A stretch of DNA of 34,930 nt from Anaerolineaceae bacterium. Its GTDB lineage: Bacteria > Chloroflexota > Anaerolineae > Anaerolineales > Anaerolineaceae. Positions within the stretch are counted from its first letter, which is position 1, and each line of letters starts with the position of its first letter. A model generated the notes under the pieces. It did not search any database. It saw only the letters and a list, made by a program, of their open reading frames with translations, and had not been told where the DNA came from. The stretch spans positions 1 through 34,930 of the forward strand of contig JAFPZX010000077.1 in assembly GCA_017417055.1 (NCBI GenBank), written 5' to 3'. Made by a program: the position numbers and the translations under genes. Below are positions 5,889 to 30,950 of the stretch, one piece after another.

Positions 5889-7661
5889 ATGAAAATAAAA
5901 CTCCGGACAACACTGATTTTCATCATCCTTTTTCTGCTGGTGTTCTTGTCAGCAGCATGTACACATACACGCAAGGCGAACTCTCCGCAGCAGCTGACTG
6001 CCATCGCGGACCGTGTAAACATACTGCGCGTTACTGAAGCCATGCTGGAAACCGAAGAACAGCGTTATGTCACGCCATCCGCAACACCAACGATCACACC
6101 TACAGAAACGCTGCCGCCGGAAGCAGAAACCGCAACCGCTGCATTTATCGCTACATCATCACTCACTCCCACAGTCACGCTGACACCGGAACCATCCGAC
6201 ACGCCAACGATAACACCAACAACGGTCACGCCCCGCGCTACCTTTCCGGTTGAAACCATCGCGCCGTCAACAGCCACAGCCACAGCTGAATTTGCAGAAC
6301 CGTCCGCAACTGCGACACCAAACATTCCGCTGCCGGATCTTACTTCGGATTTCAATAACAAAGCCTTTTACGTCGTTCAAAACGGCGACACAGCGCAATC
6401 TATAGCCTTCCGATACGGAACCGATACGAATCATATCACAGGGCTAAATAGTCCGGAAACAGAAGGATTTCTGAAACCGGGAACCCTTTTGCTGGTCAAG
6501 GCGCCAAAGCACGTTTACAGTTCCGGCACCCGTATACTGCCGGATGAATATATCGTTATGGGGTATCCCTCTATCGGATATGACCTGGAATATGAAGTTC
6601 AGCGGGCAGGCGGATATCTTTCTACTTACACGGAATACACTTCATCCGGAACCTTGACCGGCACGGAGATCATTCAGAAAGTGGCGATTGATTATTCCGT
6701 AAGTCCGATCATTTTGCTGGAACTGCTGGAATATAAAAGTCACTGGGTTTCCGGGCAACCTCATACGATCGTGGAAGAACATTACCCTCTCGGATGGCTC
6801 GGCGACAACTCTGAAGGGCTTTATCATCAGCTCACCTGGGCTGCGCAGGAACTTTCCCTGGGTTATTATGGCTGGCGCTACGGAGAGTTGGCGGAAATCC
6901 CCTTCTACAAATATCCTCAGCCCGAAACACCGATCTATTTCAACCCGCATCTGAATGCGGGGTCCGTTGCAATTCAATATTTATTCGCTCAGCTTTATTT
7001 GTATAATGAATTTGAAGATGCCATCTACGGAGCGAATGGATTTTTGCAGCAGTTTTATCTCGATTTCGGGAACGTCTGGGATTATTATGTACCGGACCCA
7101 CACGGATTCAATGACCAGCTTGTACAGCCGCCGCTCACGCTTCCCTATAATGAAGGCGATGAATGGTCCATCACGGGCGGCCCACACTTGTCCTGGACAA
7201 CCGGCTCTCCACTGGGCGCACTGGACTTTGCGCCGCCGATGGCCATCGGCGGATGCGCCCGCTCGGATTCATGGATCACCGCATCAGCCCCGGGGCTGGT
7301 TATTCGAAACGGCATTGGGACCGTAGTTCTTGATCTGGACATGGATGGGCACGAGGAAACAGGATGGGTCATTTATTACCTGCATGTCCGCACAGATGGG
7401 AAAGCAGAACCGGGAACCATGCTCCCGCTTCACGGCCGCATCGGACATCCTTCGTGCGAAGGAGGAAATGCCACCGGAACGCATTTGCATATCGCTCGGA
7501 AATACAACGGCGAATGGGTGCAGGCTTACGGCCCGCTGCCATTCAACATGAGTGGATGGATTCCATTTGGCGGGGAAGCTTACGCCGGCGGAGTCACCAG
7601 AGGAGACGAGACAGTTTACGCCGAGCAATACGCGTCATCAGAGAAAGTGGTGCATTATTGA
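5889..7661 (+). CDS. LysM-M23 peptidase lipoprotein, paralogue 1
   Basis: 590 aa. A lipoprotein signal with lipobox LSAAC (Cys at residue 24) is followed by a ~90-residue linker rich in Pro and Thr, a LysM peptidoglycan-binding domain (~160-210, starting YVVQNGDTAQSIAFRYG), a helical middle part, and a C-terminal M23-type zinc metallopeptidase domain (~420-560). Candidate zinc ligands are GGPH, the Asp of GALDF, and the second His of GTHLHIARKYNG. Within the domain, DLDMDGHEETGW resembles a DxDxDG calcium loop and is conserved in the next gene. It probably cleaves cell-wall cross-links outside the membrane. No Shine-Dalgarno is visible before the ATG, but the signal peptide fixes this start. 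Confidence 0.87.
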   Translation: MKIKLRTTLIFIILFLLVFLSAACTHTRKANSPQQLTAIADRVNILRVTEAMLETEEQRYVTPSATPTITPTETLPPEAETATAAFIATSSLTPTVTLTPEPSDTPTITPTTVTPRATFPVETIAPSTATATAEFAEPSATATPNIPLPDLTSDFNNKAFYVVQNGDTAQSIAFRYGTDTNHITGLNSPETEGFLKPGTLLLVKAPKHVYSSGTRILPDEYIVMGYPSIGYDLEYEVQRAGGYLSTYTEYTSSGTLTGTEIIQKVAIDYSVSPIILLELLEYKSHWVSGQPHTIVEEHYPLGWLGDNSEGLYHQLTWAAQELSLGYYGWRYGELAEIPFYKYPQPETPIYFNPHLNAGSVAIQYLFAQLYLYNEFEDAIYGANGFLQQFYLDFGNVWDYYVPDPHGFNDQLVQPPLTLPYNEGDEWSITGGPHLSWTTGSPLGALDFAPPMAIGGCARSDSWITASAPGLVIRNGIGTVVLDLDMDGHEETGWVIYYLHVRTDGKAEPGTMLPLHGRIGHPSCEGGNATGTHLHIARKYNGEWVQAYGPLPFNMSGWIPFGGEAYAGGVTRGDETVYAEQYASSEKVVHY

Positions 7662-7669
7662 TCCCTCGT

Positions 7670-9214
7670 ATGATACTGAAACGAATGTTCCTTCTGATCC
7701 TGCCCGCAGTTCTTATCCTTTGCGGTTGTATTGTCCGTGTGGAACAGATTCCAACAGAGGTTCCGACAAATACACCCGCTCCTACTCCGACGATTGAGAT
7801 CGTCCCTACAGTCAAATATGCGGGCGACCCTGTTCGTCAGCGCCGTCCGAAATATATGCCGGGTGAACTGGTTGATTATACAGCGATGGACGGAGACACG
7901 CTGCCCGCATTGGCTTCGAGATTTAATACGACAGAACAGGAGATCCGCGCAGCAAATCCAATCCTGCCGGAACATGTCACTACACTGCCGCAGGGATTGC
8001 CGATGCAGATTCCCATTTATTACCGCAGCGGCTGGGGCAGCTCCTACAAGATCCTTGCCGACGCACAGTTTGTCAACGGTCCGGCGGATAAAGGGTTTTC
8101 TGCCCGCAGCTATACTGACCGCCAGCCGGGATGGTTCAAATATTTCAATGTTTGGAGTGACAACCGGAATCTTCGGGGTGGGGAAATAATCGACAACATC
8201 GCGGAACAATACTCCATCAGTCCGCGCCTGCTGCTTGCAATCCTTCAATACCTGACGAATGCATTAACCGATCCAGGGTACCGGAATGATTTTAATACAG
8301 CCAGTGTTCTGCGAATGCCAGGCGATCGTTATAAAAGCCTGAGCGGACAGCTCAATCAGGTAGCAGAGTTTTTCAACGACCATTATTATAACTATAAAGC
8401 AGGGAACTTCAGCGAATATGAGCTGCAGGACGGCTCTCTGATCCGGATCGATCCATGGCTGAATGCCTGCAGCGCCACGCTCCAGGCTTATTTCGCGGCT
8501 ATATTCTCAGCAGAAGATTATTACAGAGCAATCGGCCCGGATGGTTTCGTCAGACTGTATAAAGAGATGTATGGCGATTTTCCCCCGGTTGAGGAATACC
8601 CGGCGCATTTGCCCGGGTCGTTGGAACAAATTGAGATGCGCTTGCCCTTTAAAGATGGAGAGGCGTGGACCTACACCGGCGGACCGCACACAGCCTGGGG
8701 CAGCATGCACCCCTACGCCGCCATTGATTTTGCACCTCCAAGCAATCAGCATGGCTGTTTTGTCAGCCGCGCGGAAGTGATCGCGCCTCACAGCGGCACC
8801 ATCGTCCGCACCGGGACAGGTCAGGCCATGTTGGACATGGATGAGGACGGTGATGAGCGGACCGGCTGGGTAATGCTGCTTTTGCATCTCAAAACCGAAT
8901 CTATCCCGCCGGTCGGGACACATGTAGAAACGGGAGATTTTTTGGGGCACCCATCCTGTGATGGCGGTACCTCCTCCGGTACACATGTCCACCTGGCACG
9001 GAAATATAATGGGGAATGGATCGAAGCCGGCGGTATTATTCCGCTGAATATGGATAACTGGATCACAGAGGCTGGTCCTGTGAAATATGAAGGCAGAATG
9101 AGGCGCTTTTCCAGTTATGTAACCGCATCTACCGTATCAGAATACTTCAGCCGCATTCTTGCCGGTCCGCCAATCTACCCTACAGCGGTCCCGACGCCGA
9201 AGCCGAAGAAATAA
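7670..9214 (+). CDS. LysM-M23 peptidase lipoprotein, paralogue 2
   Basis: About 514 aa, paralogous to the preceding gene. The signal peptide ends in lipobox LCGC (Cys20), followed by a shorter Thr/Pro linker (PTNTPAPTPTIE), a LysM domain (~65-115, YTAMDGDTLPALASRFN), a helical central region and a C-terminal M23 domain with GGPH, AAIDFAPP and GTHVHLARKYNG. The DMDEDGDERTGW segment matches the calcium-like loop of paralogue 1. The frame is open far upstream, but that part overlaps the previous gene out of frame and has no sense. ATG 7670 lies 8 nt after the previous stop; TTG 7658, overlapping that stop, is possible. Neither has a good SD, so translational coupling is likely. The gene ends just before a heptamer array. 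Confidence 0.87.
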   Translation: MILKRMFLLILPAVLILCGCIVRVEQIPTEVPTNTPAPTPTIEIVPTVKYAGDPVRQRRPKYMPGELVDYTAMDGDTLPALASRFNTTEQEIRAANPILPEHVTTLPQGLPMQIPIYYRSGWGSSYKILADAQFVNGPADKGFSARSYTDRQPGWFKYFNVWSDNRNLRGGEIIDNIAEQYSISPRLLLAILQYLTNALTDPGYRNDFNTASVLRMPGDRYKSLSGQLNQVAEFFNDHYYNYKAGNFSEYELQDGSLIRIDPWLNACSATLQAYFAAIFSAEDYYRAIGPDGFVRLYKEMYGDFPPVEEYPAHLPGSLEQIEMRLPFKDGEAWTYTGGPHTAWGSMHPYAAIDFAPPSNQHGCFVSRAEVIAPHSGTIVRTGTGQAMLDMDEDGDERTGWVMLLLHLKTESIPPVGTHVETGDFLGHPSCDGGTSSGTHVHLARKYNGEWIEAGGIIPLNMDNWITEAGPVKYEGRMRRFSSYVTASTVSEYFSRILAGPPIYPTAVPTPKPKK

Positions 9215-16862: not shown

Positions 16863-17882
16863 TCATCTGTTTCCATACATTTTGTCGTAATAGTTACGGT
16901 ATTCTCCGGAAATGATTGGCTCCCACCAATCCTGATTGTCAAGATACCAGCGGATGGTCTTTTTGATCCCATCTGCGAATTTTGTCTCCGGCAGCCAGCC
17001 CAGCTCATTGTGGATCTTGGTCGGATCGATCGCATAACGCAGGTCATGTCCCTTGCGGTCTGTCACATAGGTAATCAGATCCTCACTCTTTCCCAATTCC
17101 TTGATGATCAGTTTGACAATGTCGATGTTCCGCATCTCGTTATGACCGCCGACATTATAAACCTCACCGATGCGTCCATTCCGGATAATCAGATCGATGG
17201 CCCTGCAATGATCTTCCACATAAAGCCAGTCTCGAACATTCAAACCCTCGCCATAAACCGGCAGCGGTTTGTCATGCAGACAATTGATGATCATCAACGG
17301 GATCAATTTTTCCGGAAAATGATAGGGGCCATAATTATTGGAACAGCGGCTGATGGTTGCCGGCAGACCATAGGTCCGGTGATATGCCTGAACCAGCAGA
17401 TCGGCAGACGCCTTGGAAGAGGAATAGGGACTGGATGTATGAATAGGCGTCGTTTCAGTGAAAAACAAATCAGGACGGTCCAGCGGCAAATCACCGTAAA
17501 CCTCATCAGTGCTGACCTGATGATAGCGGATATTTCCATGAGAACGGCAGGCATCCATAAGCACAGAAGTACCGATAATGTTCGTCTGCAGGAAAATTCC
17601 GGGGTCTTCAATAGAGCGGTCCACATGGCTTTCAGCAGCAAAATTTACAACAATATCAGGCTTTTCTTCATCAAAAAGATGGTTGACAGCCTCCCTGTCA
17701 CAAATATCGATTTTGCAGAAACGAAAATCCGGATTGTCCATAACCGGAGCCAGTGTGGAAAGGTTTCCCGCATAAGTAAGCTTATCCAGACACACGATCC
17801 GTTCACCGGGATGTTCCCGCAGCATATGGAAAATAAAATTACTGCCGATAAATCCGGCTCCGCCTGTAACAAATATGGTCAT
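16863..17882 (-). CDS. rfbB: dTDP-glucose 4,6-dehydratase
   Basis: About 339 aa. NAD-binding VTGGAGFIGSNF at 5-16, catalytic triad region VSTDEVYGDL (Thr125, Asp126, Glu127) and YSSSK (Tyr153, Lys157), and FAAESHVDRSI are all characteristic of RmlB/RfbB. It converts dTDP-glucose to dTDP-4-keto-6-deoxyglucose, the entry to rhamnose and other deoxysugars. The ATG at 17882 is chosen because AAGGAG lies 4 nt upstream; an upstream in-frame start at 17915 lacks support. rmlA, rmlC and rmlD are not in the window. Probably cotranscribed with fcl and perhaps with the unknown gene upstream. Confidence 0.95.
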   Translation of the reverse strand: MTIFVTGGAGFIGSNFIFHMLREHPGERIVCLDKLTYAGNLSTLAPVMDNPDFRFCKIDICDREAVNHLFDEEKPDIVVNFAAESHVDRSIEDPGIFLQTNIIGTSVLMDACRSHGNIRYHQVSTDEVYGDLPLDRPDLFFTETTPIHTSSPYSSSKASADLLVQAYHRTYGLPATISRCSNNYGPYHFPEKLIPLMIINCLHDKPLPVYGEGLNVRDWLYVEDHCRAIDLIIRNGRIGEVYNVGGHNEMRNIDIVKLIIKELGKSEDLITYVTDRKGHDLRYAIDPTKIHNELGWLPETKFADGIKKTIRWYLDNQDWWEPIISGEYRNYYDKMYGNR

Positions 17883-17964
17883 AATACTCCTTAATAATGT
17901 CCGGTTGCCGCACACTCAATGCTTATAACGTTACTTTTTTGAACCGGCTCAACTTTGAAAATGC

Positions 17965-18555
17965 TTATCCTTTGACGATTTTCTTTCTGTATTTCACCAT
18001 CATGCTGTATGCATCCAGGTAAAAATCGGTAAAGCTTTCGTCAATTTCCTTCAAATCTTCATGAAGCACTTCATCATTCGGAAACTGCTTGATCATGAAT
18101 TTCACATGCCGGCTCACTTCTTCCCCAATTGCATAACTGTCTTTACAGACACGGTTCATAAGCTCCAGCGCATGATCCTGCAATCCGTTTATTTCACTGA
18201 ATTCTTCAAAAATCAGTTTGGCGCCATTCAATAAATCAGTGAGTGTATCCTGCATCTGTTCCGCTGCCGGGATCAACTCCGGCGTATCATATGCAGTTTG
18301 CTGAAAAAGCAGCCAATCTATATTATACCGTATTTCAATCTCCCTCAGGTCCCCCGTGTACTCACCATAATCCATTTCAGGAAAAAGTCTGATTTTATTT
18401 TCAGGCAAAGCAGCCATATCGAGCGGGAAAGGCCTGGGACTGAGCTGCAGCCGTTTTTTGTCTTCTTCTTTATTGATTTTATTGGAAATCGAGATATATT
18501 TTTCAGGTTCCTGTTCCGGTTCATCGTTCTCATAGTATATAGGGACTGGGTTCAT
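17965..18555 (-). CDS. Hypothetical acidic helical protein
   Basis: 196 aa; family not recognised. The first ~45 residues are charged and low in structure (NDEPEQEPEKYISISNKINK), and the rest is predicted helical and acidic with a basic tail VKYRKKIVKG. No signal peptide or membrane segment. GGAGAA lies 7 nt before the ATG, so it is a real gene. It is 82 nt upstream of rfbB in the same direction and could belong to the same transcript, but nothing in the sequence ties it to sugar metabolism. Confidence 0.75.
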   Translation of the reverse strand: MNPVPIYYENDEPEQEPEKYISISNKINKEEDKKRLQLSPRPFPLDMAALPENKIRLFPEMDYGEYTGDLREIEIRYNIDWLLFQQTAYDTPELIPAAEQMQDTLTDLLNGAKLIFEEFSEINGLQDHALELMNRVCKDSYAIGEEVSRHVKFMIKQFPNDEVLHEDLKEIDESFTDFYLDAYSMMVKYRKKIVKG

Positions 18556-18648
18556 TGATTTATTCTCCGGTGCTCTTATCAGTTGTTTTTTCGTGTACTT
18601 TTCGCAAACAACAAACTTCTATTCTTCTTTTGTAAATCCGACCTTGCT

Positions 18649-18654
18649 ATTATA
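18649..18654 (-). promoter_or_regulatory. Candidate -10 box for the 18555 gene and downstream sugar genes
   Basis: A perfect TATAAT on the minus strand, about 95 nt upstream of the start, with no strong -35. The rest of the gene-free stretch 18556-18855 holds only a short palindrome at 18731-18754 and AT-rich sequence. Confidence 0.35.
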
Positions 18655-18730
18655 CGTAATAATATAGGAATTGTGTACGATTTTCAATAATTTTCAGTCA
18701 ATTTCATGATACGTTTCACAGAGTATTCAC

Positions 18731-18754
18731 GGGACAGGCTAAAAGGCCTGTCCC
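18731..18754. repeat. GGGACAGGC palindrome (short hairpin)
   Basis: Perfect 9-bp arms (18731-18739 with 18746-18754) around a 6-nt loop. It resembles the GGGACNGNCCC elements at 20646, 21952 and 30857. There is no T-run, so it is not a standard intrinsic terminator, though it lies 100 nt beyond the metI stop. Confidence 0.6.
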
Positions 18755-18855
18755 ACTATGAAGCACATATGGCCACTTTTACAGCAGCATTGGAAATTTC
18801 CAATTAGCAGAATCTCTGTAAACTCAGGAACCGTCTCCAAGTGAGCCATTCTTTT

Positions 18856-19563
18856 CTAATCTTTCAACCGTTTATCGCTCTTGCGGGCGAGCCAGGTTCC
18901 GAAAGACTGGATAAGCTGGGTGATAAGAACAAGAACAATCACTGCCAGATAAAGCACCGCATAACGATAGCGCTGATAACCATAGGCAAGTGCCAGTTTT
19001 CCCAAGCCGCCGCCGCCCACAGCACCGGACATGGCCGTATATCCCATGATCGTAGTGATAGCCAGTGTAAAATTCGTGATCAGTGAAGGGACACTTTCCG
19101 GCAGCATCACATGAATAATGATCTGCATCGGCGTTGCGCCCATCGCCTGGGCTGTTTCAATGATGTTGGGATTCACTTCACGCAGACTGCTTTCCACCAG
19201 TCGTGCGATAAACGGGAACGCGGCCACCGTCAGCGGGACAATCGATGCAACCGTGCCGACGGAGGTCCCGACAATTACGCGCGTAAGCGGAATAATCATC
19301 ACCATCAGAATAATAAACGGGACCGAACGTAAAAAATTGATAAAAACATTGATGAAACTCATGATCGGTTTCGGCAATGGTTTGATCCCTTTCGGTTCCC
19401 CCGTCACCAGCAGGACACCCAAAGGCAGCCCGATGATGATAGCGAAAAGCGTGGCAAGCAAAGTGGAATAAAGCGTTTCCCAGATGGCAAACGGAAATTC
19501 ATTGATCAGGCAGTTCCAGGCCTCCTGCAGACGTTCCGGTGTAAATGCATTCGCAAAACTCAT
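18856..19563 (-). CDS. metI: Methionine ABC transporter permease
   Basis: 235 aa with five to six membrane helices and the binding-protein-dependent permease EAA loop near residues 135-160 (ETAQAMGATPMQIIIHVMLPES). The segment LPLGVLLVTGEPKG and the C-terminal GGGGLGKLALAYGYQRY are typical of MetI. It forms the translocation pore with MetN. Its ATG overlaps the metN stop by 4 nt (19560-19563), so translation is coupled. The first ~15 residues (NAFTPERLQEAWNC) are slightly longer than in E. coli. Confidence 0.95.
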   Translation of the reverse strand: MSFANAFTPERLQEAWNCLINEFPFAIWETLYSTLLATLFAIIIGLPLGVLLVTGEPKGIKPLPKPIMSFINVFINFLRSVPFIILMVMIIPLTRVIVGTSVGTVASIVPLTVAAFPFIARLVESSLREVNPNIIETAQAMGATPMQIIIHVMLPESVPSLITNFTLAITTIMGYTAMSGAVGGGGLGKLALAYGYQRYRYAVLYLAVIVLVLITQLIQSFGTWLARKSDKRLKD

Positions 19564-20588
19564 GACTGTGCCTCCTTTGATCCGTATTCAGCTTCCACCT
19601 GCACAATAACATCCGGCATGGAACTCAGATATTTCACCGCACGAGCAAGCTCCTCCGGACCGCCCGGGATTTCCAGCAGAATATAGCCATACGCAAGGTC
19701 GCCGACCGATCGGGTAGAGGCGCCAAGGATGGATCCTAAAATTCCGCAATCCACCGCCATTTTGGCGATCATTGGTTCCCGGGACGCGACAGCTCCGTTA
19801 TAAATAATGCGGATCTTCTGTCCGCCTTCGGAAAGAACAGCCGCGCCATCCGCAAGTTCCGGATAGATGAGGCTCTTCGTGGCGTTGGCTTTCGGGTTAG
19901 AGAAAACTTCGCTCACTTCGCCCTCTTCGACCACCTCGCCATGTTCCAGGATTGCCACCCGATTGCAGATTTCCTGCACCACGCTCATCTGGTGGGTAAT
20001 GACAATCACTGTGATGCCCAGCTTTCGATTGATATCACGGATCAGTTCGAGAATAGCGTGCGTCGTTTTTGGATCCAGCGCGGAAGTGGCTTCATCACAG
20101 AGTAAAACTTCCGGTTCCGTTGCAAGGGCACGGGCAATCGCGACACGCTGCTGCTGTCCGCCGGAAAGCTGAGCCGGATAGGAATTGGCTTTGTCCGGAA
20201 GTCCAACCAGTTCCAACAGCTCCATACCGCGTTTTTCCGCGTCCGTTTTATTCATACCGCTGAGCCGCAGCGGAAGTGTCACGTTTTTCAAACAGGTTCG
20301 CTGCATCAGCAGGTTGAAACTCTGAAAAATCATGGTGATCTGCCGCCGCATGGCACGCAGTTCCTTTTCCGACATGGCGCCAAGGTCTTTCCCGTCCCAG
20401 ATAACCGTACCTTCCGTCGGCTTTTCCAGCATATTGATGCAGCGGACGAGGGTGCTCTTTCCCGCGCCGCTCATGCCGATGATCCCATAAATGTCCCCAT
20501 TTTGAACTGTCAGATTGATATGCCGCAGCGCATCTACAGACCCATCTGCCGTTTCAAAATGTTTGGATAGATTTTTCAGTTCGATCAT
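19560..20588 (-). CDS. metN: Methionine ABC transporter ATPase
   Basis: 342 aa. Walker A GMSGAGKST (38-46), signature LSGGQQQRVAIARAL, Walker B LLCDEATSALDP and a C-terminal NIL/ACT-like regulatory domain (~265-340), which in E. coli MetN binds methionine and shuts the transporter off when the cytoplasmic pool is high. GAGGAAAG precedes the ATG. It is separated from the upstream metQ gene by a 369-nt stretch carrying two repeat elements, unlike the tight metN-metI overlap. Confidence 0.96.
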   Translation of the reverse strand: MIELKNLSKHFETADGSVDALRHINLTVQNGDIYGIIGMSGAGKSTLVRCINMLEKPTEGTVIWDGKDLGAMSEKELRAMRRQITMIFQSFNLLMQRTCLKNVTLPLRLSGMNKTDAEKRGMELLELVGLPDKANSYPAQLSGGQQQRVAIARALATEPEVLLCDEATSALDPKTTHAILELIRDINRKLGITVIVITHQMSVVQEICNRVAILEHGEVVEEGEVSEVFSNPKANATKSLIYPELADGAAVLSEGGQKIRIIYNGAVASREPMIAKMAVDCGILGSILGASTRSVGDLAYGYILLEIPGGPEELARAVKYLSSMPDVIVQVEAEYGSKEAQS

Positions 20589-20645
20589 AACGCTTTCCTC
20601 TGTTCAAATATAACGCGTATCGTCATTTCTATTCATAGAGTCACC

Positions 20646-20674
20646 GGGGTCTGTCCCTTTATGGGACTTTCCCC
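20646..20674. repeat. GGGACNGTCCC-type palindrome between metQ and metN
   Basis: Arms GGGG-TCTGTCCC and GGGACTTTCCCC pair imperfectly around TTTAT. It shares the core CTGTCCCTT-ATGGGAC with the long element at 30857-30950 and looks like a half copy. Confidence 0.6.
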
Positions 20675-20874
20675 ATCTCTCTGTAGTCCATAACAGAACA
20701 TTCCCGGTGGCTGACCAATGATTAGCCCCCTGTAAATTCCACTTCCGCATATTATATCCTATGTTTTACTGCCCGGGAAAAAGCCTTTACAAAAAACACA
20801 GGAGACCTTCCCGCTTTGCCGTCTGTACGGTCTCAGCTTGAACGTCCCCTATGCCATCATAGAAAAAACAAGAG

Positions 20875-20945
20875 ACGCACATGAGGACAGGCACACTTGC
20901 GTCGGCCGAGCGGCACAAGGTGCCAGTCCCCGATGTGCTTCGTGT
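20875..20945 (+). repeat. REP-like element, GGACAGGCACAC...CCAGTCCCC family, copy 1
   Basis: The ends GACGCACATGAGGACAGGCA and TGCCAGTCCCCGATGTGCTT are complementary over most of their length, with an inner GCGGCACAAG segment. A second copy with the same order of blocks is at 32888-32956. The element sits between the metQ stop (20958) and metN. Confidence 0.75.
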
Positions 20946-20957
20946 TGAATAGCAGAT

Positions 20958-21791
20958 TTATTTATCCAGACCCAGGGCAGCCAGATCAGCCTGTTTCCCG
21001 GCATAGAGCCCCATCGGTTCCACATGGACACCAGCAATAGTAACCAGGTGCGTACCGTTCTGAGCATTGAAGTCTTCCTGGTACGGGCTGTGAGCAAAGA
21101 AGTTGGCGAACGCGTCACCGTCATTCACGATGGTGTTCGGGGTCACATAGTCATCGACGATGGTGATATCCAGCTTGATGTCCTTTTCAGCAAGGATTTC
21201 TTTCGCGATTTCGAGGACATAAGAGTGAGGATCCAGTGTGCAGAGCACTTTGATGGTCTTACCAGCCAGTGCTGCGTAATCAACATCCGGATCGAAACCA
21301 TCGGTCGGTTCTTCCACGACGGAGATCGCCTGACCTTCATAGTTTTTGAAGTAATCAACGACTTTCTGGCTCAGGACGGCAGCGGCCAAAGCTTTGGCTT
21401 CATCGGTGTCCTTGTTAGGTTCATTGACGCTGACGACATTCACATACGGGGATTCTGCGTTTTCATAAAGCAGAGCGGAATCCAGTTCAGCAGCCAGGGC
21501 ATAGTTGCCGTTGATGATGCCGTAATCAACATCTGCCAAAACGTTCGGGACCATCGCGGCTTCAACTTCAACGAATTCGATACCCAGCGGGTTGTCCTTG
21601 ATATCAGCGACGGTAGCGGTAATGCCGGCTTCGTCATCAACATCGATCACGCCATAGGCTTCGAGCAGCAGAAGAGCACGGCCTTCATTTGTCGCGTCAT
21701 TCGGAACAGCAATCTTGATATTTGCTGCGGAAACGGATGCAGCGGTCAATACCAACACTGCAGCTAAAATCAAAACAATAAGCTTTTTCAT
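20958..21791 (-). CDS. metQ: MetQ-type methionine-binding protein, circularly permuted
   Basis: 277 aa. After a signal peptide (1-22, ending ASVSAA) comes the half that is C-terminal in ordinary MetQ: IKIAVPNDATNEGRALLLL (25-43), the VxEVEAAMVPNVLADVDYGI region, GNYALAAEL and SPYVNVVSV. A linker (~159-176) then leads to the half that is N-terminal in ordinary MetQ: KTIKVLCTLDPHSYVLEIAK, DYVTPNTIVNDGDAFANFF, HSPYQEDFN and VHVEPMGLY, ending LAALGLDK. All expected segments are present once, in rotated order. The signal lacks a lipobox Cys, so membrane anchoring is not apparent. The ATG at 21791 is chosen; the in-frame TTG at 21803 has AGGA directly abutting it. It heads the met operon. Confidence 0.9.
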   Translation of the reverse strand: MKKLIVLILAAVLVLTAASVSAANIKIAVPNDATNEGRALLLLEAYGVIDVDDEAGITATVADIKDNPLGIEFVEVEAAMVPNVLADVDYGIINGNYALAAELDSALLYENAESPYVNVVSVNEPNKDTDEAKALAAAVLSQKVVDYFKNYEGQAISVVEEPTDGFDPDVDYAALAGKTIKVLCTLDPHSYVLEIAKEILAEKDIKLDITIVDDYVTPNTIVNDGDAFANFFAHSPYQEDFNAQNGTHLVTIAGVHVEPMGLYAGKQADLAALGLDK

Positions 21792-21812
21792 AATAAATTT
21801 CAATCCTTTCTT

Positions 21813-21828
21813 TTCAGTTCAAACTGAA
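21813..21828. promoter_or_regulatory. 16-bp palindrome in the metQ leader, candidate operator
   Basis: TTCAGTT-CA-AACTGAA has perfect 7-bp arms. It begins 9 nt downstream of the -10 box of the metQ promoter, where a repressor could block initiation. No SAM riboswitch or T-box fits in the ~40-nt leader. Confidence 0.5.
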
Positions 21829-21836
21829 TACCCGTG

Positions 21837-21865
21837 ATTATAATCAGCACTTTTTCTTTTGTCCA
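21837..21865 (-). promoter_or_regulatory. Promoter of the metQNI operon
   Basis: On the minus strand TGGACA (21860-21865) and a perfect TATAAT (21837-21842) are separated by exactly 17 nt. This is the best sigma-70-type promoter in the window. AAAGGA follows upstream of the metQ start. Confidence 0.8.
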
Positions 21866-21951
21866 ATACTTGATTTCAATTATCAGATATAGTTACAACC
21901 TATAACGAACCATACGAATTATCAGTACAGTATATACATTCTGTTCTTAGT

Positions 21952-21980
21952 GGGGACCGACCCATAAAGTGACAGTCCCT
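21952..21980. repeat. GGGACNGTCCC-type imperfect palindrome
   Basis: GGGGACCGACCC and the facing GTGACAGTCCCT pair imperfectly around ATAAA. It lies directly after the stop of the flavodoxin-like gene (21990) and upstream of the metQ promoter. Confidence 0.5.
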
Positions 21981-21989
21981 AAAGAGAAT

Positions 21990-22385
21990 CTAACACAATA
22001 ACTTACGTTTTCCGAATTCCTTCGCAGCTTCGGCGCGGCCTTTGATATTGAGCATATGCGCATAAAAATGCTCGGGATCCACAGGAATATTCCGTTCCTT
22101 CAATATTTTCCGGAGTGCATAAACAGTACGCCGTGACCAGTTGGATGTTGTGAACAGGACCACCTTACCGACCAGTCCCGGTGACAAATTTTCAGCGTAA
22201 GCTCTCAACTCGGGCGCCATGATATTGGCATAAGGAGCTCCGCCGAGGAAAAGTACATCCACGTTTTCGGGCAGCTCGGGTTCATCTGTAATAGAGACAG
22301 CTTTCACACCGACACCTTCGGAAATAGCTTCCGCAATCGTTTTGGTATTGCCGAGTTTAGAAAAGTATCTGACTGCTGCTTTCAT
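21990..22385 (-). CDS. Flavodoxin-like protein
   Basis: 131 aa. The N-terminal YFSKLGNTKTIAEAI is a flavodoxin phosphate-binding loop for FMN, and FLGGAPYANIMAPELRAYAENL corresponds to the second FMN loop. A typical flavodoxin is ~140-170 aa, so this is a short member. The ATG overlaps the upstream carboxylesterase stop as TAATG, indicating translational coupling. It probably acts as a cytoplasmic single- or two-electron carrier for the nitroreductase or aldo/keto reductase encoded nearby; that pairing is inference. Confidence 0.82.
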   Translation of the reverse strand: MKAAVRYFSKLGNTKTIAEAISEGVGVKAVSITDEPELPENVDVLFLGGAPYANIMAPELRAYAENLSPGLVGKVVLFTTSNWSRRTVYALRKILKERNIPVDPEHFYAHMLNIKGRAEAAKEFGKRKLLC

Positions 22386-24211
22386 TAATTTGATTCTTTC
22401 TCAACATCGTAAATTTCATCCAGGACATCCTCTATATCCGTCCGGGGCAGTTCAAACCCGTACATTTCATCCAGGATCGAATACATCTCAAGATACGGTG
22501 CATCTACCCATTCGACGGATGTATTCAGTTCCAGCACCTTATCAAGGCCGGTTGATACAGGCCATGCCGGAAGCCCATGTCCATTGGGATCCCCGCCGGT
22601 AATAAAATGCTTGAAATAAAACATCATGGTATCACTGAGTGTCCGGTCATCATCATTATACAAAGAAGAATCCTGCGGAATATTCCCGTAAAGATACACT
22701 TCCTCACCCGAGTGCCACGCACTCAGCCTGCCATTCTGTTTCGTAAAATAGTAAACATAAGAGGGAATCCCATTTGCCAACGCCTGCCGCTCCCAGCAGT
22801 AATGGCCATAGGTGAAATAGAATACCGTATAAATTTCTGCCCAGTTTCGCTTCGCTTCCTCATCCGTCGCAGCCGGATAAAGTTCCAGAACCCGCGATGC
22901 GTATGGTTCCGGGAAAAGGGTCCGGATATTTTCCTCATAGTTTTTTAAATTTGCCTGACTGAAGAGAATAAACGGGGCAGATTCATCACGATTAAAACCA
23001 TGCATCTGCGCTTCCTCATTATGAATGCCTTTTGCATAGGACTCATAGGGCGTCTCCGGGAGCACATAGCCATCGATCGTGATGTGATGGTGTGTGTTCA
23101 TCTCCGATGCCAGTTTTTCCGCGGGAATCGCGCGCAGATCAGCAATGTTCACAGCTTTATACCGCGTTTTTGTATCAGCTGCGGCAGCATATGCTTCATC
23201 GAGCAGGCGGAAGGAATGTGCGGGTTTGGGCGCTGTGACTGTGGAACTTTCCCCAACCACACGGCGGAACAAACCTTTTGCCAGCGGCGAAGTCGATAAG
23301 GCGGAAACGCAGGCAGAACCGGCCGATTCCCCGGAGATGGTAACATTGCCGGGATCGCCGCCAAACGCAGCAATATTATCCTGAACCCATTGCAGTGCCA
23401 GGATCTGATCCAGCAGACCGTAATTCCCGGTAGTTCCATTGGGCGATTCGGCGGCCAGTTCCGGGTCTGCAAGGAATCCGAAAATGCCGAGACGATATCC
23501 CATGTTGACGACAATAACGCCCTCGTGAGCGAGTCCCAAACCGGAATAATCCTGATACCATGGCTGTCCGGTTTGCAGCGCACCGCCATGGATGTAAACC
23601 AACACCGGCAGGCCGGAAACATCACCCGCGGGTTTCCAGATATTCAGATACAGCGAATCCTCACTGACGGGCTCCCGGTAATTGTCATCAAACGAAAATT
23701 TATAGTCGTGATAGCCGATGATCTGCGCCAGGGAGTTGTAAATAGTTGAATTTTGAACCTGCATTGACATCGGCGCGAAATGGTTAGCAGCAAGCACACC
23801 GGACCAGGGTTTTGCGGGAACCGGTTCCCGCCAGCGCAAATCACCCACAGGCGGCTCCGCGTAGGGGATCCCTGCATAGACTTCCACCTCGCCGTCCTCC
23901 GTGAGCACGCCGGTCAGGTCACCTTGCGGGAGATGGATCACATTCGTTATCCCGCCGGTTTTTCCCTGTACCGCGGGAACTGGTTTGATGGGCGGTTTGG
24001 AGATCCACAGGATAATGGCAAACCAGGCGATCAACCCTGCCCAGCTAACAAAGCGAGCCCACCGGGACGCGCCATTCAAGCCCTTAACCCGGGCAAAAAC
24101 AAAACCGCAAACGAGAATGACTCCCAGAATCCAACCCAAAAGCGTATGTTTTCCCAATTCAAGCGTCGTAAAAAAGAGAAGTGATAAAATGATAAGCAAA
24201 AAAATCCACAT
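22385..24211 (-). CDS. Membrane-anchored type-B carboxylesterase
   Basis: 608 aa. Three hydrophobic segments in the first ~70 residues are followed by a full carboxylesterase type B domain (~88-570) facing the outside. The oxyanion region VLVYIHGGAL (204-212), nucleophile motif TISGESAGSA with Ser296, and a candidate catalytic His in AWHSGEEVYLYG near residue 505 are visible. Substrate unknown; such enzymes hydrolyse a range of esters. GGAGAAC lies 2 nt before the ATG. It is unusual for this family, mostly soluble or secreted, to start with a three-helix membrane anchor. The gene is embedded in a redox cluster and translationally coupled to the flavodoxin-like gene. Confidence 0.9.
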   Translation of the reverse strand: MWIFLLIILSLLFFTTLELGKHTLLGWILGVILVCGFVFARVKGLNGASRWARFVSWAGLIAWFAIILWISKPPIKPVPAVQGKTGGITNVIHLPQGDLTGVLTEDGEVEVYAGIPYAEPPVGDLRWREPVPAKPWSGVLAANHFAPMSMQVQNSTIYNSLAQIIGYHDYKFSFDDNYREPVSEDSLYLNIWKPAGDVSGLPVLVYIHGGALQTGQPWYQDYSGLGLAHEGVIVVNMGYRLGIFGFLADPELAAESPNGTTGNYGLLDQILALQWVQDNIAAFGGDPGNVTISGESAGSACVSALSTSPLAKGLFRRVVGESSTVTAPKPAHSFRLLDEAYAAAADTKTRYKAVNIADLRAIPAEKLASEMNTHHHITIDGYVLPETPYESYAKGIHNEEAQMHGFNRDESAPFILFSQANLKNYEENIRTLFPEPYASRVLELYPAATDEEAKRNWAEIYTVFYFTYGHYCWERQALANGIPSYVYYFTKQNGRLSAWHSGEEVYLYGNIPQDSSLYNDDDRTLSDTMMFYFKHFITGGDPNGHGLPAWPVSTGLDKVLELNTSVEWVDAPYLEMYSILDEMYGFELPRTDIEDVLDEIYDVEKESN

Positions 24212-28364: not shown

Positions 28365-29204
28365 ATGAAAAAAAACTTATATTCAACACTGATTCTTTTA
28401 TTGCTGCTGATATTCATTGTCGTTCCGGCAACAGCACAGGAATCTAATCCAACTTATGTAGTTGCCCAACTGGCAAAGCCCAATGATATTTCGGAAATTG
28501 ATTTTTCGAAATTTTTGGAGCCCAGATTTCAATCCGGTTGGACTGTTTTCGACCATAACCATGCCATTGATTTTCAGTATTATGAAGATTTATCCGGTAT
28601 GCTCATGGCCCTGGATGCGGGAACAGTAGATGAAATCACACTTCCCCGTTTTGTGGCTGAATATGTTGTGAGAACCAATCCTGAATTGGAAATTTGCTGT
28701 GTTGAAGCTATGCCTGAAAATATGACATTACGTTTCGGTTTCCGCGAAGATGAAAACGACCTTTTGGCGCAAATGAATGAAGCGATTGCCGCTATGAAGG
28801 GAGACGGGACACTGGATGCCCTGATTAACAGCTACATGAAACCGAACGCGGGGGAAGAATTGACCTCTGTACAATTTGACAGTTTTCCTGAATCCGATAA
28901 AACAATTCGTGTGGCTGTTACCGGAGATCTTCCTCCCATTGATTATATTGGCGCCGATGGCATTCCTGCCGGTTTCAATACCGCGGTGCTTGCAGAAATC
29001 GGTCGTCGACTTGGCGCAAACATCGAGTTATTAAGCATGCAAACCGGCAGCCGCGCACTTGCACTCACGAGCGGAAGAGCGGATTCTGTATTCTGGTTCA
29101 TGTGGTCTCCAAACGATTCATATGACGTACCGGAAGGAGTTCTGCTTTCCGATTCCTATCTCACCTTTGATATGTGGCTCCACGTCCGCAAAGCTGAGAA
29201 ATAA
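28365..29204 (+). CDS. Orphan SBP_bac_3-like binding protein, circularly permuted
   Basis: 279 aa. Signal peptide 1-24 ends PATA-QE, with no lipobox Cys. Residues ~28-160 match the second lobe and C-terminal helices of family-3 binding proteins: SGMLMALDAGTVDEITLP, EYVVRTNPELEI, FGFREDENDLLAQMNEAIAAM and GDGTLDALINSYM. Residues ~178-275 match the canonical first lobe: KTIRVAVTGDLPPIDYI, GIPAGFNTAVLAEIGRRLGA, ALALTSGRADSVFW and SDSYLTFDMWLHVRK. The order is therefore rotated. The T-x-x-R segment that binds the amino-acid carboxylate after the LxSGxxD motif is replaced by SPNDSYDVPEG, so the ligand may not be an amino acid. AAGGGGG lies upstream. No permease or ATPase is adjacent. Confidence 0.85.
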   Translation: MKKNLYSTLILLLLLIFIVVPATAQESNPTYVVAQLAKPNDISEIDFSKFLEPRFQSGWTVFDHNHAIDFQYYEDLSGMLMALDAGTVDEITLPRFVAEYVVRTNPELEICCVEAMPENMTLRFGFREDENDLLAQMNEAIAAMKGDGTLDALINSYMKPNAGEELTSVQFDSFPESDKTIRVAVTGDLPPIDYIGADGIPAGFNTAVLAEIGRRLGANIELLSMQTGSRALALTSGRADSVFWFMWSPNDSYDVPEGVLLSDSYLTFDMWLHVRKAEK

Positions 29205-30856: not shown

Positions 30857-30950
30857 AAAATCGGGGACTGTCCCTTCATGGGACTGTCCCCACTTCTATG
30901 CCCTGCAGCGGGATGGGGACAGTCCCATAAAGGGACAGTCCCCGATGATT
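30857..30950. repeat. Long GGGACTGTCCC double palindrome
   Basis: Arms of about 31 nt (30861-30891 and 30915-30945) face each other almost perfectly around a 23-nt core that contains CTGCAG. Each arm is itself made of two GGGACNGTCCC palindromes. It fills the space just past the stop of the EAL gene (30951) and upstream of the methyltransferase promoter. Confidence 0.85.

Follow-up and report, generated by a model that had tools for sequence, protein, structure and literature searches.

Chain order and neighbourhood of the metQ gene

The stretch of DNA analysed here (the window: 34,930 nucleotides of contig JAFPZX010000077.1, assembly GCA_017417055.1, from an Anaerolineaceae bacterium) carries on its reverse strand, at 20958-21791, a metQ gene whose 277-residue product has the two halves of a MetQ/NlpA binding protein in reversed order. 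The gene is a single open frame, as claimed in the original prediction, which was made from the sequence; a TAA stop closes it. Next on the same strand come metN (ABC_tran plus NIL domain) and then metI (BPD_transp_1), and their Pfam domains bear out that prediction's account of the neighbours.

In a profile search, PF03180 matched the protein in two stretches, with profile positions 98-231 at residues 25-154 and positions 1-100 downstream, and with a whole-protein score of 191.7 bits against a gathering cut-off of 27. Alignment to solved MetQ proteins splits in the same reversed order: phmmer against 4ib2 (E 2.7e-53) set residues 177-270 on chain positions 10-103 and residues 25-156 on chain positions 110-249. 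All 22 PDB sequence matches are MetQ/NlpA-type proteins. A collinear whole-chain profile match to MetQ, which the original prediction had named as evidence against itself, was looked for and not found. Because the N half does not precede the C half as in canonical MetQ/NlpA, I class the window protein, by homology, as a permuted variant and not as an ordinary member of the family. The alignments support a circular permutation of MetQ/NlpA in which a linker joins the old ends; this new linker had been put at about 18 residues, which is its exact length in all listed members of the same form, called type A here (Table 1).

Table 1. Features of the window, with the observation on which each rests.
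Feature	Position	Strand	Basis or remark
Circularly permuted metQ (type A)	20958..21791	-	277 aa plus stop
Signal peptide, aa 1-22, no lipobox Cys	21726..21791	-	Sequence; model helix 2-19; cleavage site inferred
Canonical C-terminal half, aa 25-156, now first	21324..21719	-	Holds N118 = E. coli N229
Linker, aa 159-176 (VEEPTDGFDPDVDYAALA), old C- and N-termini joined	21264..21317	-	18 aa in every listed type A member
Canonical N-terminal half, aa 177-277, now last	20961..21263	-	PF03180 and solved-MetQ alignments
metN, ATPase with NIL domain	19560..20588	-	Pfam; identity to Clostridial permuted loci
metI, permease	18856..19563	-	Pfam; identity to Clostridial permuted loci
Sigma-70-like promoter TGGACA-17-TATAAT upstream of metQ	21865-21837	-	11/12 consensus positions
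Second binding protein, family 3 (PF00497), apparently permuted	28365..29204	+	Profile start at aa 181-246, end of family at 67-157

The strong promoter that had been predicted is present as a motif, but a scan counted 3 such sites against 2.5 +/- 1.8 in shuffled sequence, a number not above chance. A GGGAC..CCCATAAAG..GACAGTCCC repeat at 20647-20675 and 21951-21979 forms an inverted pair flanking metQ, and a third copy stands at 30916-30942, the chance expectation for the searched pattern being none. No Rfam element, riboswitches included, was found at E up to 1 in positions 17500-23500, and in a scan of eight related loci only one tRNA reached the gathering score. After metI, 17965-18555 on the reverse strand encodes a 196-residue protein for which Pfam gave nothing at E 0.001; farther away, 5889-7661 and 7364-9214 on the forward strand encode adjacent, similar secreted proteins, which by eye look like LysM plus metallopeptidase.

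Distribution and predicted function of the permuted form

The swapped order of the MetQ halves is confirmed as real, and MetQ of this kind is present in many gut bacteria. Of 14 genomes in the genus, five, one of them that of the window, encode a full-length permuted MetQ at 90-100% identity and the other nine a canonical one; the four congeneric assemblies besides the window's lie at 90-96%. The wider order gave matches in 24 of 400 genomes, with full-length permuted forms in four (G000, G006, G012 and G013). A scan of the genomes of named species, from which the best 80 of 548 relatives were kept, contained 33 type A loci (L047-L079), 44 canonical loci, one Neisseriaceae locus starting at the hinge (L082) and two loci of another order (L080 and L081). 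When 391 Clostridia genomes were searched with a profile built on the permuted form, 18 contained it (the search centre included), any MetQ match being present in 173; of 245 genomes from one Clostridial order, 70 matched, 15 of them as type A starting at the hinge and one in the order of L080, as judged from match ranges. The survey of homologues that had been proposed as a check thus returned the same order in congeners, in Clostridia and in an isolate, Vescimonas fastidiosa MM35, whose copy lies on a large plasmid, is 53.8% identical over residues 25-273 and is followed by ATPase and permease genes. This copy (WP_212820853.1) is annotated simply as MetQ/NlpA, so the permutation is easily missed. 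Viral contigs held three relatives of P0001 (order unclassified) and none of P0002. No canonical-order match above the cut-off accompanies the permuted form in 34 of 37 draft genomes.

The permuted gene is under purifying selection: against four relatives, dN/dS is 0.015-0.074 for the whole gene and 0-0.11 for the linker. N118 of the window protein aligns with E. coli N229, and all 55 type A rows and all 97 canonical rows used have Asn here. The canonical rows (three others, L132, L133 and L167, being omitted) have 51 columns with a conservation of 90% or more, and 41 of these are retained in 90% or more of the type A rows. Moreover, metN and metI adjoin metQ at 27 of the 33 loci L047-L079, in addition to the window and further loci. 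The original statement that the protein "should be functional" is, as a prediction, supported by purifying selection and operon context.

The strand that opens the old C-terminal half (IKIAVPND), as read from alignments and model, now starts the chain, at a cut that, going by known MetQ structures, presumably lies near the lobe crossover. From this strand the chain runs through the C half and the 18-residue linker to the old N-terminus and ends at the point where the old N half adjoined the hinge. It would fold as the usual two-lobed clamp, binding L-methionine or a close relative in its cleft and handing it to MetNI. An AlphaFold model has a pLDDT of 90.8, with 97-98 in the block around the linker (residues 161-180), and forms a helix in the signal-peptide region. 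In the superposition that had been suggested as a check, the MetQ fold matches cover mainly one half, with the C half at 25-53% identity in the MetQ rows listed, and the full-chain collinear matches belong to other proteins (OpuAC, HisG and others, 10-18% identity), which I read as the pseudo-symmetry of the two lobes. The listed matches are MetQ, other type II proteins or HisG, and the absence of other folds from them excludes nothing.

The lipobox Cys is absent from the window protein and from 21 further rows of a 35-row alignment (A1), whereas it is kept in L067, L069-L079 and L082 of that alignment and in L080 and L081. The type A rows without it form a single branch of 22 in a tree of rotated sequences (identical rows were merged, and the first gene of L127, L168 and L196 was omitted, as both halves were not located). 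Loss of the lipoprotein machinery as the cause is unsupported, LspA (PF01252) being present in 36 of 37 genomes. In Neisseria, full MetNI stimulation requires the lipid of MetQ, and MetQ that keeps its signal peptide uncleaved is partly active (PMC8416018). An unlipidated permuted MetQ may perhaps stay near the membrane by such an uncleaved signal peptide. Among the canonical congeners, L009, L010 and L012 have TGF or SGF at the place of the lipobox Cys and L013-L015 keep TGC or SGC.

Taken together, I put the probability at roughly 0.87 that the window protein is a circularly permuted binding protein of a MetNI-type methionine importer, a function predicted from homology and context. Several points weigh against this reading. 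The missing lipobox does so in the light of the lipid requirement in Neisseria, as do the collinear fold matches given above; the model had only permuted homologues as input and AlphaFold was already familiar with the MetQ fold, so it is weak independent proof. One pair in the selection analysis has a dS near saturation (1.79). Loci L047-L082 all come from uncultured bacteria or metagenome bins, and the status of the permuted gene as a sole copy is limited by the completeness of draft genomes. Finally, metN and metI were undetected beside metQ at six of the 33 loci L047-L079, one of which has a short flank.

The alternative that survives best, though it is unlikely, is a permuted protein that binds something else (e.g. 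a methionyl peptide) or works independently of MetNI. NlpA-family relatives such as 1p99 bind other methionine compounds, and the window protein lacks the lipobox and scores under the NCBIfam MetQ cut-offs (120.9 against 228.85 for TIGR00363 and 121.8 against 374 for NF008285). Likewise, metN and metI went undetected near metQ at L059, L061, L062, L065, L074 and L080 (short flanks at L059 and L080), and the metN match at L068 is only 31%. However, the canonical L197, the nearest canonical protein in the tree, also falls below both cut-offs (186.7 and 200), and the retention of the N229-equivalent Asn, of most conserved columns and of adjoining metN and metI at most loci speaks for a methionine importer of the MetNI type.

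Further orders and a proposed origin of the permutation

Type A is not the only non-canonical order. L080 and L081, 99% identical and from two assemblies, have the order N2-C-linker-N1: behind the signal peptide they begin with VDANYFQH, and their last residues before the stop are PNTVVNDSK; the same end occurs on a second contig of the L080 genome (L204). Both carry the type A linker and stand inside type A in the tree, beside the hinge-start L153, and their order is therefore a second permutation. Type A together with this re-permuted pair is grouped at 100/99, and type A as a whole groups with canonical MetQ relatives. A model of the L080 form (pLDDT 91.8) sets residues 27-220 on residues 90-282 of meningococcal MetQ (6cva) at 1.9 A over 191 residues.

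Type B is a separate lineage, most members of which have PDD(A/G)TN. It occurs full-length in one of the 391 Clostridia genomes (G893) and comes in three orders: C-linker-N (L127-L131, L201, L202/L169 and L237), N-C followed by the linker as a tail at the C-terminus (L167/L235 and L236), and C2-linker-N-C1 (L168/L233 and its 87% relative L234). In genome terms L168 is G578, L234 is G1006, L236 is G1104 and L167 is G556; G419 has a canonical gene with a permuted type B gene immediately after it. These orders are intermixed on the tree, and parsimony on an 18-row tree counts three order changes within type B. A single gain of non-canonical order from an N-start form was rejected (approximately unbiased, AU, test, p 1.7e-4); gain and reversion are indistinguishable here. 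Several start points on the same ring suggest that the ends of the protein shifted repeatedly as it evolved.

Type C (L082 and L137) is found in two of 83 Neisseriaceae genomes searched, 76 of which have a MetQ match, and a further permuted MetQ (L287) belongs to Subdoligranulum variabile, with a linker that differs from that of type A. Trees set both apart from type A (the main tree had 89 chosen rows, further tests 54 and 62), and either may or may not share its origin. A single ancient permutation behind all permuted MetQ, with the intervening canonical order as reversion, is an unlikely history, which I consider still less probable than another ligand. Its arguments are that roughly one crossover serves as the cut site of all hinge-start forms, that the canonical order within type B (L167 and L236) may be a reversion, and that AU tests left the joint clades standing (p 0.06 and 0.17 for A+C, 0.29 for A+L287, 0.37 for C+L287 and 0.36 for A+C+L287). 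On the other hand, types A and B as one clade were rejected (p 2.2e-5), although the groups were named after the first tree, which weakens all of these tests, and linker lengths differ (18 residues in type A, 13 in type C and 25-29 in the hinge-start forms of type B).

Permutation by duplication is described as tandem copying, fusion and trimming (PMC3320104). The same route is proposed here: metQ would have been duplicated in tandem, fused and then trimmed, with the signal peptide of the first copy kept. With the old ends joined, the termini would be free to shift once more, which would yield N2-C-linker-N1 in type A and, in type B, C2-linker-N-C1 or N-C-linker. In L229 (2054-3811), L230 (2183-3943) and L232 (1657-3579), metN and metI are followed by two canonical metQ genes that share a frame and are separated by 15, 21 and 177 bases, respectively; these pairs are plausible precursors. 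Only such unfused pairs were seen; a fused double metQ was not found among the loci examined, which tells against the proposal and leaves the duplication route as an inference. Two long open frames taken as candidates for such a fusion (G734 and G964) each proved to be two adjacent genes.

The metQ-metN-metI operon of the window's Flexilinea-like genus probably came from Clostridia. In the tree the window metQ falls within the Clostridial type A clade and the canonical congeners elsewhere. The window metN is 78-83% identical to those of the Clostridial permuted loci L051-L057 (75% to L058), and metI 86-91% to those of L051-L058. TsaD from the window contig shares 92-93% identity with its counterparts in the four permuted congeners, 65-70% with those of four other genus members, 66% with that of G024, which belongs to the family, and 39-49% with those of the seven Clostridia genomes that gave a clear match (G419 gave only a distant 21% match). 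That the direction of transfer rests on trees and identity counts against it.

Two last explanations can be dismissed. An assembly or binning artefact, the second refutation named in the original prediction, might be feared of an 85%-complete bin of 200 contigs, but the same order in four further assemblies of the genus, many Clostridia assemblies and the isolate V. fastidiosa, with a constant linker length across listed type A members, excludes it for practical purposes. An ordinary collinear type II protein of another family, resembling MetQ by lobe pseudo-symmetry, is equally negligible, since each half shows sequence similarity to MetQ (88.8 and 98.1 bits for the two parts of 4ib2, with up to 53% identity in the C half), PF03180 is the sole Pfam family in 40 of 40 members, and the collinear matches lie at 10-18%.

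A second, apparently permuted protein and comparison with known systems

The window holds another binding protein, of family 3, which from its sequence also looks circularly permuted, with the C part first and the N part last. Its relative on pSRC1 of Selenomonas ruminantium TAM6421 (L288, 3851-4726), the sole matching record in the plasmid collection, has the same order (39% identity over residues 41-274) and is followed by permease and ATPase genes.

The window MetQ shares its halves, conserved residues and metN/metI operon with known MetQ/NlpA lipoproteins (E. coli 4yah, T. pallidum Tp32 1xs5, 4ib2), and differs from them in its swapped halves, 18-residue linker and missing lipobox. Reordered lobes are also a feature of the "domain dislocation" between binding-protein families that Fukami-Kobayashi reportedly described in 1999; OpuAC/ChoX and ProX have swapped domain orders, and the window model is collinear with OpuAC. 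Domain dislocation, however, is an ancient change between families, whereas the permuted MetQ stands among close orthologues. TpMglB-2 (Tp0684) of Treponema pallidum resembles the window protein in natural circular permutation near the lobe crossover, and in this respect only. It is a permuted type I sugar-binding protein, proposed as "Type Ic"; near its hinge it has an additional crossover, and it occurs in treponemes and Gram-positives (PMC4990184). TpMglB-2 has a type I glucose-binding fold of another family, another cut and one described permuted order. Searches of the open-access PMC literature listed no permuted MetQ or permuted family-3 binding protein, in keeping with the original remark that its author knew of no described permuted MetQ. 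In my view the repeated moving of the protein's ends is the surprising part; a permuted type I binding protein is already known.

The evidence leans towards a general picture in which MetQ and other type II binding proteins of gut anaerobes behave like closed rings with repeatedly moving ends: at least two permutations in MetQ/NlpA and one in the family-3 protein of the window, with four start points (canonical, hinge, mid-N-half and late C-half) in present use, probably through recurrent tandem duplication of metQ. Most known cases of natural circular permutation relate distant proteins. Here close MetQ orthologues show canonical, several permuted and re-permuted orders, often as the sole copy found. 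The MetQ orders thus form a natural series on where the clamp tolerates a cut, on how the membrane-proximal end relates to docking on MetNI, and on how permutations arise.
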